From NCBI GenBank assembly GCA_016199265.1, contig JACQGX010000063.1, forward strand, positions 1 through 60,682: a stretch of DNA of 60,682 bases, given 5' to 3'. This DNA comes from Chloroflexota bacterium (lineage in GTDB: Bacteria > Chloroflexota > UBA11872 > UBA12225). A model generated the notes under the pieces. The model worked only from the letters and a program-made list of their open reading frames with translations, had not been told where the DNA came from and did not search any database. Shown piece after piece: positions 29,286-34,923 of this stretch (positions are counted from its first letter, which is position 1; each line of letters begins with the position of its first letter). The position numbers and the translations under genes were made by a program.

Positions 29286-30644
29286 ATGGCCATGACGAAT
29301 TCTGGTATCGGCCCGCTTCGCGCCGGCTACGCGGCGCTCGACATCACGCCGCCGGCGGGGATCGACCTTACCGGCTTTATCGCCCGCCGCGGACCATGCA
29401 CCGGCGTGCTCGATCCGCTCGAAGCGCGCGCGCTCGTCTTCGAGGGCGCGCGCGCCCGCCGCGCGGCGCTCGTGACCTGTGACCTCATCGGCCTCGGCCG
29501 CCATATGGTGGCGCGTGTCCGGCGGCGAGTCGCGGCCGCGACCGGCATCGCACCCGAAGCGCAGCTCTTCAACTGCAGCCATACCCACAGCGGCCCCGAA
29601 ACCGGCGTTCTGACGACCATCGGCATCCCCGACCCGGCCTATCTCGCCGGCCTCGAAGACCGCCTGGCCGGGTCGGTGATCGAGGCGGCGCGGGCGCTCG
29701 AGCCGGTGCGGCTGCGCATCGGCACCGTCGACGTGTCCCCTGGACTGGTGCTCAATCGAGTGTACCGCCGCGCTGGCCGGCCCGAAGCGTACGATCCACA
29801 GCTCACCGTCGTGCGACTCGAGCGCGCCGCCGGACAGGCGGGTCCGCTCGCGACGATCGTCGCCTTCGCCTGCCACGCGGTCGCGCTTGGCTCGGGCGAA
29901 CGCGGCGCCTCGGCCGACTACGTGGCGCCGCTGCGCACCCATCTCGAAGCCGCCGGCGCCGGTCCGGTGCTGTACGTCAACGGCTGCGGCGGCGACGTCA
30001 ACCCGGCGGGCATGGATGCCCGGGGGCGCGAGGCGCGCGACGCCCTCGGTCTCGGTCTGGCGCAGGCGGCGCTCGCCGCGCTCGGACAGGCGGTAGACGT
30101 AGAAGCGTCGACCGGTGGCGCGGCCACGGTGGCGGCCGCGCAGGAGTGGGCGCCGCTGCGGCTCCAGCGCCTGCGCTCGCCCGGAGAGGCGTCCAAACTC
30201 CTCGCGGCCGGCAAAGAGCGCCTGAGTCGCGAAGCGCCCGGGTCGCCGGGCTACCGCGGAACGATGGTCACGCACATCGACTACCCGCTGCGGCTGCTGC
30301 GCCTGCACTACGGGAACGAACAGCCTCCGGTCGTCACCGCCGAGGTACAGGCCATTCGCTTCGGGCCGGTCGCCGTCGTCGCCCTGCCCGGCGAGATCTT
30401 CAGCAGCCTGGGACGCACGATTAAACGGACGTCACCCTTCGCCGCGCCACGGACGCTCGTCGCCGGCTGGTCAAACGACAACGTCGGCTACGTCCCCGAC
30501 CGCGACGCGTATCCGCTCGGCGGCTACGAGGTCGACAGCGCTAGCCGTTACTATGGCTTCCCCGCCGGCTGGGCACCGGAAGCCGGCGACACCCTCGTCG
30601 CGGCCGCCCGGCGCGCGCTCGATCAGGTCGTGAGAGCGACTTGA
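29286..30644 (+). CDS. Neutral/alkaline non-lysosomal ceramidase-like N-terminal domain protein
   Basis: 452 residues. AGYAALDITPPAGIDLTGF at the start, then FNCSHTHSGPETG (zinc His), VAFACHAVALG, YVNGCGGDVNPAG and AIRFGPVAVVALPGEIFSSLG. These are the Zn-binding ceramidase-core motifs, but the bacterial subfamily is short and lacks the C-terminal Ig domain, so substrate may not be ceramide. No signal peptide is visible. Confidence 0.85.
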   Translation: MAMTNSGIGPLRAGYAALDITPPAGIDLTGFIARRGPCTGVLDPLEARALVFEGARARRAALVTCDLIGLGRHMVARVRRRVAAATGIAPEAQLFNCSHTHSGPETGVLTTIGIPDPAYLAGLEDRLAGSVIEAARALEPVRLRIGTVDVSPGLVLNRVYRRAGRPEAYDPQLTVVRLERAAGQAGPLATIVAFACHAVALGSGERGASADYVAPLRTHLEAAGAGPVLYVNGCGGDVNPAGMDARGREARDALGLGLAQAALAALGQAVDVEASTGGAATVAAAQEWAPLRLQRLRSPGEASKLLAAGKERLSREAPGSPGYRGTMVTHIDYPLRLLRLHYGNEQPPVVTAEVQAIRFGPVAVVALPGEIFSSLGRTIKRTSPFAAPRTLVAGWSNDNVGYVPDRDAYPLGGYEVDSASRYYGFPAGWAPEAGDTLVAAARRALDQVVRAT

Positions 30645-31082: not shown

Positions 31083-31466
31083 TCACTCTTGCACCGAGTA
31101 CGGCTGGTACCACGCGTCCATGCGGTCGCCGTCGTCCCGCTTCAGCCGCGCCACCGCGCGGCGTGCGCCGTCTTCGGTGCCGTGGACTTCGGCAATGCTG
31201 TCGCTCTCGCGCAGCTCACCATCTGGGTCTTCCCACGCCGCCCCGCGAAACACCACGAACACCTTCGCCCGGGCCGGGCCGGGCGGCGCCGTCTCGGGCT
31301 CTTCCTCTTCTTCGGGAGGTACGGCCAGGATCGCTTCCATGTCGGCCTGCACGCGCGCTGCGTCACGCCGGCGGCGCTGGCGCTCGCGGATCGAATCGGT
31401 ATCGTCGCCTGCGCCGGTCTGATCGAGATCGAACTGGGCGAAGCCATCTCTGGGTTGCATACCCAT
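31083..31466 (-). CDS. Hypothetical acidic/viroplasmin-like protein
   Basis: 127 residues. An N-terminal disordered part (FAQFDLDQTGAGDDTDSI, RRRRDAARVQ), an acidic run (PEEEEEPE), then KVFVVFRGAAWEDPDGEL plus AEVHGTEDGARRAVARLKR, a beta-alpha unit reminiscent of the small RNase-H-inhibitor/viroplasmin or DUF1508-like folds. Not firmly assigned. It stands after pgi on the same strand. Confidence 0.5.
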   Translation of the reverse strand: MGMQPRDGFAQFDLDQTGAGDDTDSIRERQRRRRDAARVQADMEAILAVPPEEEEEPETAPPGPARAKVFVVFRGAAWEDPDGELRESDSIAEVHGTEDGARRAVARLKRDDGDRMDAWYQPYSVQE

Positions 31467-31488
31467 AAACCTTACCGTGTCCGCCCGC

Positions 31489-33135
31489 TTACCGTGTCCG
31501 CTCGTCGTTTTGTGCAGCCTCCCAGATTGGGAAGAGCGGTACCGACGCCACGGCCAGCGCGTGCACCGCGTCCGGGATGTCGCCCGAGAGACGGATGCGG
31601 AGGACACGCCGTTCGCGGGCCCGCAGCGCCTGTAGATCGCCGATCGCCTGCGCCTGCTTGAGCGTGCCGAACGAATACGGCGCGCCGGGAATCGGCGCAT
31701 CCTCGAGGTCGTCGGAGACGAGCTGAACGAACACGCCGGTATCGGGCCCGCCCTTGTGCCACTGGCCGGTGGAATGCAGGTACCGCGGCCCAAAGCCGAG
31801 CGTCGTCGCGACTTTGAGGTGGTCGCGGAGCGCCAAGCGCCACGCGCTCAGCGCCGCCTCCGTCTCTTTCGTCCGCGGCACAAACGCCAGCACCGCCAGG
31901 TAATCTCCCGGTTGCGCCTGCCGGAGCAGGGTCGCGAGCGCGTGCGTTGCTGCGTCGCCTACCTCGACCTCCGGCACAGCCGGCAACCGGCCGGCCGTCT
32001 CGTACGCCTGCAGCACGCGCGACGTATGGTCTTTGCTCTCCTGGACGTTGGGCTCGTCGAACGGGTTGATGCGCATCGACGCGCCCACCACCGCCGTCGC
32101 GAACTCCCAGGTGAAGAACTGGTAGCCCAAGTCGAGCGGGCCGGCCGCCGGCAGGCGCACCACCAGGTGCCCCTCCCGCTCCAGCGCCCGCAGCCGCTCG
32201 GCCGCCTCGACATCCACACCCACGGCCACGAAAATACGATCGTCACCGTACACGTCCGGTGGGCCGAGCGTCTCTCCCTCCACCGGAAGCAGTCCCTTGC
32301 CTTCCTTTCCGGTGCTCTCGGCGATGAGCTGCTCGACCCAGTAGCCCAAACTCTTGAAGGGATGGGCGTAGACCAGCGTCACCTTGTCCCGGCCGTTCGC
32401 GGCCGCGCGCGCCAGCGCGGCGCCGAGCTGTGCGCCCACGTTGTCTTCGATCGGCGCCTCGGCGGCGCACTCGCGCATTGCCTCGATCGCTCGGTCGAGC
32501 AGCGCCGCCACGTCTACCCCGATGAGCGCCGCCGGCGCCAGGCCGAAGTACGAGAGGGCAGAGTAGCGGCCGCCGATGTCCTCGGGGTTGAGAAACGTCC
32601 GCCGAAAACCGAGCCGCGCGGCCTCGTGCTCGAGGGGCGTGCCGGCGTCGGTGATGGCGATGAACTGCCTGCCCGCGCCGTTTGGCCCATCCCCCGCGTG
32701 CTGTCGCACGTGCTCGTAGTAGAACCGCTCAAACGACAGCGTTTCCGTCGTCGTCCCCGATTTCGTCGAGACGATGAAGAGCGTCTTGTCCCACGGCAGA
32801 CGGCGCTGGTAGTCCAGCACCGTGTGCGGATCGGTCGAGTCGAGCACCGCCAGATCCAGGTATCCCGGACGCACGCCGAACGTGCGGCGCAGCACCTCCG
32901 GTGCCAGCGAGCTGCCACCCATACCGAGCAACAGCGCGTGCGTGAACCCCTCCCGGCGCACTTCGCCGGCGAACGCCGCCAGATCATCCGCCCGGTGCCG
33001 CAGATCCGAAGCCACGTCGAGCCAGCCCAGCCGATTGGCGATCGACGCGTGGTGTGTCGTGTCGTCCGTCCAGGTCGCCGGCCGGCACTCCCAAATCCCG
33101 CGGACGAGTCCCGCCAGATCACTTCGCTCTTCCAT
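31489..33135 (-). CDS. pgi: Glucose-6-phosphate isomerase
   Basis: 548 residues. Interconverts glucose-6-P and fructose-6-P. It resembles the isomerase half of transaldolase/Pgi fusions: LLLGMGGSSLAPEVLRRTFG, DSTDPHTVLD, IVSTKSGTTTETLS, NPEDIGGRYSALSYFGL and GYWVEQLIAESTGKEGKGLL. The catalytic Glu and His context (FHSTGQWHKGG-type GRYLHSTGQWHKGG) are present. TGCTATAAC (33155-33163, minus) is 20 nt upstream, a good extended -10. Confidence 0.92.
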   Translation of the reverse strand: MEERSDLAGLVRGIWECRPATWTDDTTHHASIANRLGWLDVASDLRHRADDLAAFAGEVRREGFTHALLLGMGGSSLAPEVLRRTFGVRPGYLDLAVLDSTDPHTVLDYQRRLPWDKTLFIVSTKSGTTTETLSFERFYYEHVRQHAGDGPNGAGRQFIAITDAGTPLEHEAARLGFRRTFLNPEDIGGRYSALSYFGLAPAALIGVDVAALLDRAIEAMRECAAEAPIEDNVGAQLGAALARAAANGRDKVTLVYAHPFKSLGYWVEQLIAESTGKEGKGLLPVEGETLGPPDVYGDDRIFVAVGVDVEAAERLRALEREGHLVVRLPAAGPLDLGYQFFTWEFATAVVGASMRINPFDEPNVQESKDHTSRVLQAYETAGRLPAVPEVEVGDAATHALATLLRQAQPGDYLAVLAFVPRTKETEAALSAWRLALRDHLKVATTLGFGPRYLHSTGQWHKGGPDTGVFVQLVSDDLEDAPIPGAPYSFGTLKQAQAIGDLQALRARERRVLRIRLSGDIPDAVHALAVASVPLFPIWEAAQNDERTR

Positions 33136-33186
33136 AGTCCCTCAGTCCCTCGCTGTTATAGCACGGCTCGGCGTCCGCGCAGCGCA

Positions 33187-34092
33187 CTACCCGCGCAACA
33201 GCTCCCGCTCGACCCGCGCGCGCAGTTCGCCCAGCCGCGTCTGCAGCCCCGTCAGCCGCTCGCACGCTCCCTGCAGGCGCTCGTGCTCGGCGCCGATGCG
33301 CCGCGTATACGGCGCCAGCACCTGCCGGATGCGCTGGATCGACCGCTCCAGCTCCGGTTCGAACTGGCGGAGCATGCCGTCCTTGAGCCGCATTCGCAAC
33401 CCATCGGTCCTGGCTCGGAATTGTTCGCGCGCCTGCCGGCGCCGCAGGGGAATGATGAAGAACCCGAGGCCGGCGAGCACGCCCGCCGCGAGCAGCCCCG
33501 TCACGTCGGCGAGCGTCTGCACCTCGGCGACCTGGGCCTCGTCGCGCAGCAGATCGATCTTGTTCAGCGCGATCAGCATCTTCTTGCCCCAGCCCCGGAT
33601 TTCCTCCATGAACGCCCGCTCCGACTCGGTGAAGGGGCGATCGACCGAGGTCACGAACAACACCAGGTCGCTGCGCGGGATGAACTCACGCGTCAGCTCC
33701 TCGTGGCGGCGCAACACCGCGTTCGTCCCCGGCGTGTCGACGATCGACAGCTCGCGCAGCAGAGGTGCCGAGAGCGCCCATTCCACGACGCCGCCGGGCA
33801 GGTGCCGCTCGCGCGGCTCCTCGCCGTAGCGCAGGATCGTCACCTGCACCGTCGTCGGCGTCACCCCCTCCTCGACGTATGGCCCGGCGAGTAGCGCGTT
33901 CAGGAGCGCCGACTTCCCGGCGTTGAACTCGCCGACCACTACCACCAGAACCAGGTCCTCCAGGTCGGCTGCCGCTTGGCGTACCGGTGCCAGGTCGCGC
34001 TCGCCGGCGCCCAATGCCGCCAGCGTCTCACGCAATTCGGCCAGCAGGTCGCGTTCCGCGGCCAGCAGCGCCGCCTCGCGTGGCCCAAGCAC
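33187..34092 (-). CDS. Dynamin-like GTPase with large internal deletion
   Basis: 301 residues, GTG start. G1 VVVGEFNAGKSALLNALL (about 50-67), G2 TPTTVQV, G3 VDTPGTNAV, G4 LIALNKIDLL. Bacterial relatives are about 550-600 residues. Here the sequence jumps from NKIDLLRDEAQVAEV directly to ADVTGLLAAGVLAGLGFFII, the membrane-inserting paddle and the C-terminal helices (PYTRRIGAEHERL). About 270 residues of the helical bundle are missing in frame. It may retain GTP and membrane binding but not normal assembly. Confidence 0.85.
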   Translation of the reverse strand: MLGPREAALLAAERDLLAELRETLAALGAGERDLAPVRQAAADLEDLVLVVVVGEFNAGKSALLNALLAGPYVEEGVTPTTVQVTILRYGEEPRERHLPGGVVEWALSAPLLRELSIVDTPGTNAVLRRHEELTREFIPRSDLVLFVTSVDRPFTESERAFMEEIRGWGKKMLIALNKIDLLRDEAQVAEVQTLADVTGLLAAGVLAGLGFFIIPLRRRQAREQFRARTDGLRMRLKDGMLRQFEPELERSIQRIRQVLAPYTRRIGAEHERLQGACERLTGLQTRLGELRARVERELLRG

Positions 34093-34269
34093 CCGCAGGA
34101 TCTGAGACTCGCGTGGCCCGTGCGGCCCCTGCGGCGTATCTGATGATGAAACCGACGACGTTACGTGCGCTCGCTACGCTAACTGTAGCGGCAATGCCGT
34201 GCCGGGTGCCGCACTGTCACAATACGGCCCGGCGGCGGTGTTACTACTACAGAGCATGAGGAGGCAAGA
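34093..34269. promoter_or_regulatory. Divergent intergenic region with inverted repeats
   Basis: Between the GTPase and the sigma gene. Contains GCTACGCTAACTGTAGCGGC (imperfect inverted repeat) and GCACTGTCACAATACGG. GGAGG lies 5 nt before the sigma-factor GTG. A possible autoregulatory promoter, not proven. Confidence 0.35.
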
Positions 34270-34923
34270 GTGCAACGAGCCCTGACCGGCACGCACGTGA
34301 TGCCGGCGACCCGTCCGGCCGTGGCCACGGTTGATGCGGCGATCCGTGACGCGAGCCCGACGATCGAAGAACGCGACCTCTTGGACCGGTTGCGTGACGG
34401 GGATGAGCTTGCCTTCGCCCGGCTCTTCGAGCAGCACTGGGATGGCGTCTACCGCCTGCTTGCCAAGTTGCTCGGCGACGCCGACGCGGCCGCCGACCTG
34501 GCGCAAGACGTCTTCGTTCAGCTCTTCCGGCTACCGCCCGAAACCGGCTCGGCCCCGCTCCGGGCGTGGCTCTTCTGCGTCGCGCTCAACCGCGGCTACA
34601 ACGCGTTGCGGTCGGAGCGCCGCCGGCGCAACCGTGAGGACGCGGTAGCCCGCGATCCCTCGCGTGGGTCCAATCGCGGTGCCATCGCCGACGCCGCGCT
34701 GCTCGAAGAAGCCAACCGCGCCGACGAGCGCGATGCCGTCCGTCGCGTGTTGATCGCCCTCCCCGAGCGCCAGCGCGATTGCCTGATCCTGCGCTCCGAG
34801 GGCCTGAGCTACGCCGAGATCGCGGCCGCCATCGGCGTCGCGCCCGGTTCGGTCGGCACGCTGCTCGCCCGTGCCGAGCGTGCCTTCAAACAACGTTATC
34901 TCGCCCAGCGCGGCGGCTTGTAG
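34270..34923 (+). CDS. RNA polymerase sigma-70 family, ECF type
   Basis: 217 residues. Region 2: DELAFARLFEQHWDGVYRLL, AAADLAQDVFVQLFR; region 4: VRRVLIALPERQRDCLILRS, EGLSYAEIAAAIGVAPGSVG. Start GTG 34270 has GGAGG. The downstream gene is its likely anti-sigma factor, with the ABC exporter as the possible regulon. The stop TAG is the first codon of a heptamer array. Confidence 0.93.
   Translation: MQRALTGTHVMPATRPAVATVDAAIRDASPTIEERDLLDRLRDGDELAFARLFEQHWDGVYRLLAKLLGDADAAADLAQDVFVQLFRLPPETGSAPLRAWLFCVALNRGYNALRSERRRRNREDAVARDPSRGSNRGAIADAALLEEANRADERDAVRRVLIALPERQRDCLILRSEGLSYAEIAAAIGVAPGSVGTLLARAERAFKQRYLAQRGGL

Follow-up and report, generated by a model that had tools for sequence, protein, structure and literature searches.

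Does a dynamin-family gene whose frame runs open from start to stop, and from which most of the helical stalk is missing, encode a working miniature dynamin, or is it the remnant of a disabled one? The question is raised by a 301-amino acid (aa) frame at 33187–34092 on the minus strand of the window, the 60,682-nucleotide stretch of Chloroflexota bacterium DNA analyzed here (assembly G000). An original prediction made from the DNA letters had placed an intact dynamin-like frame here without naming a strand, and its coordinates prove exact.

Identity and Locus of the Gene

The short protein matches Pfam Dynamin_N (2e-23, 83.7 bits) and, among PDB sequences, BDLP, IniA and the dynamin pair of entries 5OWV/5OXF. 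All four motifs from G1 to G4 are present (Table 1), mostly in invariant or near-invariant alignment columns. A further 27 open codons precede the GTG (328 in all) and contain no alternative ATG, GTG or TTG start. The start codon lies between the two copies of an exact 12-nt direct repeat (34075–34086 and 34108–34119, 33 nt apart), which the upstream open frame reads as GPRE...GPRE; in the ortholog of genome G004 an ATG stands two codons ahead of the place of this GTG, and the window has CTG at that site.

Table 1. Features of the shortened dynamin gene and its two neighbors, in window coordinates.
Feature	Position	Strand	Details and basis
Shortened dynamin-like frame	33187..34092	-	301 codons, GTG start, TAG stop
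Residues 1-45, two N-terminal helices (H4-26, H31-45), neck helices of the BDLP layout	33958..34092	-	Structure model; BDLP neck as described in PMC2862293
Residues 46-192, first part of the G domain, G1 to G4	33517..33957	-	Dynamin_N, alignment, models
G1 P-loop GEFNAGKS, residues 54-61	33910..33933	-	Invariant columns
G2 TPTT, residues 78-81	33850..33861	-	Motif, alignment
G3 DTPG, residues 119-122	33727..33738	-	Motif, alignment
G4 NKID, residues 177-180	33553..33564	-	Motif, alignment
Deletion join, residues 192/193	33516..33517	-	Ortholog alignments; 315 (G002) or 293 (G004) residues missing
Residues 193-216, second half of the hydrophobic paddle hairpin	33445..33516	-	Hydropathy comparison
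Residues 217-301, long C-terminal helix, trunk/neck end (GED-like)	33190..33444	-	Alignment, structure models
Phosphoglucose-isomerase (PGI) family gene, downstream neighbor	31489..33135	-	Same order in G002
Sigma-70 family factor, divergent upstream neighbor	34270..34923	+	Same order in G004

The dynamin locus is orthologous to those of G002, a relative from the same family, and G004: on one side G004 matches the sigma factor, its partner, an ABC ATPase and a permease, and on the other side G002 matches the PGI-family gene. In its genome the window gene is the sole ortholog of a dynamin-like GTPase that is widespread in Chloroflexota and has the BDLP/mitofusin layout. No promoter or terminator consensus was found at the short gene, a weak test and an uninformative one for this phylum. 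Two other frames lie nearby: a fast-evolving small conserved protein at 31083–31793, which falls in no Pfam family, carries a WYQPY motif close to its end and accompanies the dynamin in the window, G002 and G004, and a frame at 29286–30644 with a neutral/alkaline ceramidase N-terminal match above the Pfam cut-off.

The Join and the Missing Length

When the G002 ortholog (651 aa) is searched against the window's own genome, its residues 8–201 fall on 33517–34098 and its residues 517–631 on 33172–33516; these blocks abut in the window, and G002 residues 202–516 are absent between them. The join is thus single and clean, and the missing segment follows window residue 192 or 193, according to the pairwise alignment. 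Because both blocks are 65–77% identical to one and the same ortholog and neighbors are shared at the locus, a chance match does not explain the pattern. Relative to 69 full-length relatives, 268–315 residues are missing (median 280). The in-frame loss of about 270 residues that had been predicted therefore stands in kind and is slightly low in size, the gap being 293–315 residues against the nearest orthologs; alignment with relatives, by which the deletion was to be placed, puts it at a single point between residues 192 and 193.

Microhomology at the join is limited to 8–10-nt chance words, and the orthologs are too diverged for the pre-deletion sequence to be rebuilt from them. Direct repeats of 10–31 nt occur in the region, and none of them meets at the join. 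Neither the missing middle nor a full-length copy is found elsewhere in the assembly at E<=10; as the assembly is 77% complete, the absence of a second copy is not proof. Among 19 neighbor genes compared with G002 and G004, no internal gap of at least 30 residues is seen past residue 16, with one exception, an ABC gene with a 31-residue gap against G004 alone; start-proximal gaps we put down to the comparison with stop-to-stop frames. Since the neighbors are essentially free of such gaps, the contig is not generally faulty and the lesion is specific to the dynamin gene.

What the Cut Removes

Columns that are invariant in an alignment of 64 relatives number 54, and 11 of these lie in the missing part, among them S213 of a VSAR stretch that we take to be the G5 equivalent of this dynamin. 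The AlphaFold2 model of an intact ortholog (mean pLDDT 82.6) has, in its G domain, strands up to 172–177, a helix at 185–203, a strand at 208–211 and helices at 214–253, followed by bundle helices 256–339, 366–402, 428–465 and 469–494 and a last helix at 513–612. Mapped onto this model, the cut begins within helix 185–203 and ends at 508, just ahead of the last helix. The short form, as modeled (mean pLDDT 72.1), has strands up to 172–176 and none after 176; its pLDDT is under 50 at 177–217, after which a single long helix follows.

The G domain of the short protein therefore stops within the helix that follows NKID and is incomplete, without its last strand, the G5-like VSAR or its closing helices. 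Of the neck and trunk helical bundle, only the N-terminal and C-terminal helices remain. The 22 columns on each side of the break are hydrophobic (mean Kyte-Doolittle above 1.0) in every one of 70 relatives, and the short protein retains only the second half of this paddle hairpin, the first being gone. In the original prediction the G domain led directly into the paddle/C-terminal region, a picture that needs correcting, as the G domain itself is cut after G4 and the paddle is halved; its observation that the helical stalk is missing is correct, with no outgoing neck helix and very little of the trunk left. Relative to orthologs at the same locus, the gene has lost an essential part.

Comparison With Known Dynamins

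The structural matches of the intact ortholog are led by mitofusin 1/Fzo1 constructs (Z 27.1–27.8, rmsd 2.4–2.8, 297–321 aligned), followed by EHD, IniA, SynDLP and BDLP; Foldseek places BDLP first, with low TM-scores, which we take to reflect hinged domains. By sequence and fold, the window product shares with BDLP (PDB 2J68/2J69) the N-terminal neck helices, G1–G4, the second half of the paddle and the C-terminal helix. In BDLP the GTPase domain is complete and neck and trunk are present, whereas in the window product the G domain stops short, the outgoing neck helix is absent and little of the trunk is left. The BDLP neck is described as including residues 1–68, and the chain was broken for fitting at Gly68 and Gly309 (PMC2862293). 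Mycobacterial IniA (6J72/6J73), which matches the G domain in sequence and has the BDLP layout, is described as consisting of a canonical GTPase domain, Neck and Trunk (PMC6715688).

The truncated mitofusin 1/Fzo1 constructs (5YEW, 9KFD–9KFF), the highest structural matches of the intact ortholog, are engineered proteins in which the whole GTPase domain is kept and the distal bundle is removed; in the window product, by contrast, the GTPase domain itself is truncated. The titles and abstract openings covered by literature searches on this subject include no natural short, stalkless or deleted bacterial dynamin.

Distribution of the Full and Short Forms

A scan of GTDB gave 344 confirmed relatives, the best 80 of which were examined; in 76 of these both parts lie in one frame of 541–693 aa. 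The remainder comprise two relatives truncated by contig ends yet still 430 and 501 aa long (L085, L108), one cut at 208 aa by a contig end, too early for its form to be judged (L059), and one in an Anaerolineales genome (L037, 457–1700) whose long form has its two parts in separate frames. This last locus, with 412 aa plus another frame, is a possible frameshift. Relatives that are uncut at both ends and no shorter than 560 aa, 69 in number, form the alignment set, and 64 of them entered the alignments given to AlphaFold2; the 11 dropped are L037, L045, L050, L056, L059, L067, L085, L093, L103, L107 and L108.

A query spanning the join matches 91 of 400 genomes of the phylum. Among the matches listed, G000 is the sole single perfect stretch, in its 328-aa open frame, and the other rows have frames of 511–903 aa, matched mostly in two pieces. 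The short form, which had been expected to be worth seeking in related genomes, is thus found neither among the best 80 of the 344 relatives nor, outside G000, among the phylum-wide matches listed; the deletion is known from this one assembly only.

Within the family, three of nine genomes, G000 included, carry the gene, and the other two have it at full length; it was not found in the remaining six, whose assemblies are incomplete. The family genomes without the gene are the smaller ones (2.2–3.7 Mb, against 5.1–6.1 Mb). The G004 ortholog (L112:4258-6312:-) has a Ser/Gly-rich 14-residue insertion about 10 residues before the deletion site, and the G002 ortholog (L113:4086-6041:-) a long Ala/Gly-rich insertion in the trunk; the lineage thus tolerates length changes here. 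Elsewhere in the G000 assembly Dynamin_N matches one other place, weakly (23.8 bits, or 43.4 with its neighbors; a 512-aa frame).

Divergence of the Remaining Sequence

Relaxed selection on what remains of the gene was considered on the evidence of conserved-column deviations, trees, relative rates and comparison with neighbors, which together give no consistent signal. The window keeps 42 of the 43 retained invariant columns, the exception being F48V. Of the columns that 90% of rows conserve, the window deviates at 2 of the 63 lying in the N part, where 31 of 71 rows (window included) are at least as deviant, and at 2 of the 15 in the C part, where 5 of 71 rows (again with the window) are. 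The window, G004 and G002 form one clade, and relative-rate counts are balanced between the window and both orthologs: 13 to 14 (N part) and 6 to 8 (C part) against G004, 19 to 18 and 9 to 6 against G002. In the FastTree tree of the N part the window's terminal branch is 0.241, compared with 0.131 and 0.160 in the two orthologs, and this near doubling would fit slight relaxation. Three-way distances give the window branch 0.12 (N) and 0.23 (C), values that lie within the 0.11–0.34 spanned by 7 of the 8 neighbor genes with both orthologs, the small gene at 31083 standing at 0.57. GC content by codon position in the short gene resembles that of the orthologs and neighbors. A remainder that has not decayed means that the lesion is young, that some function is left, or that the join is false.

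Explanations for the Short Frame

The explanation we favor, with a probability of roughly 0.6, is a recent in-frame internal deletion that disabled an ordinary single-copy dynamin-like gene. The clean deletion that the original prediction offered as one of two readings is supported by the single join, the missing segment and the relatives that are whole at the same locus. One in-frame event of about 0.9 kb would have hit a BDLP/mitofusin-like gene. It would have taken away the G domain's last strand with the G5-like VSAR and the helices beyond, then the outgoing neck helix, almost the entire trunk and the paddle hairpin's first half. The product would probably be unable to complete the nucleotide pocket or to power membrane remodeling, leaving what would be, in effect, a null allele. 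The frame would have stayed open only because the number of deleted nucleotides is divisible by three and little time has passed. Several points count against a young null allele: were the frame irrelevant, the chance of its being kept would be only one in three, the deletion comes from one assembly, and the undecayed remainder would fit residual function, or a false join, as well. A false join, the main rival, is possible though distinctly less probable: the short frame could stem from a collapse in assembly, from a contig of chimeric origin or from a variant carried by a minor strain, with the full gene present in the main population. G000 is a single assembly of 5.59 Mb in 430 contigs, 77% complete and metagenome-derived to judge from its fragmentation, with no same-genus member among the comparison genomes, and the remainder is as conserved as in intact genes. 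However, the missing segment is on no other contig, no long repeat is seen at the join to drive a collapse, the join is exactly in frame, and the 19 neighbor genes speak for a sound contig.

That the short protein is made and useful, by binding nucleotide or membrane or by capping or inhibiting another dynamin, appears unlikely. The intact frame, the retained G1–G4 and hydrophobic segment and the lack of clear relaxation are in its favor, but the G domain is incomplete, the hairpin is halved, the relatives examined do not share the form, and the promoter and terminator search, for what it is worth, gave nothing; the only other Dynamin_N match in the assembly is so weak that the short protein has no evident partner. 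The original prediction named two observations that would speak against an unusual mini-dynamin: a full form in all relatives, which is what those examined display, and relaxed selection, which is not clearly seen. The loss of the G5/last-strand end and half of the hairpin, the absence of the form from the relatives examined and a model disordered across the join weigh against this reading. We give still less credence to the specific proposal that the 301-aa protein is selected as a stalkless, membrane-seated fragment that binds nucleotide weakly via G1–G4 and serves as a regulator or in a new role, taken up after the lineage gave up the remodeling machine. Least probable of all is that the blocks are two distinct genes, or domains of independent origin, that mimic a deletion: tblastn does return two distinct blocks, but both match one frame in 76 of the best 80 of 344 relatives, at one shared locus, and this colinearity contradicts such an origin.

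Implications

As a likely null allele, the gene would have little import beyond annotation, where a search with Dynamin_N alone would label it a GTPase despite the cut fold. If the short form were functional after all, it would raise the question of what share of the dynamin G domain and stalk a working protein requires. For the family, a disabled gene would be a further data point that the dynamin is dispensable, three of the nine genomes having the gene and one of those three having it broken.
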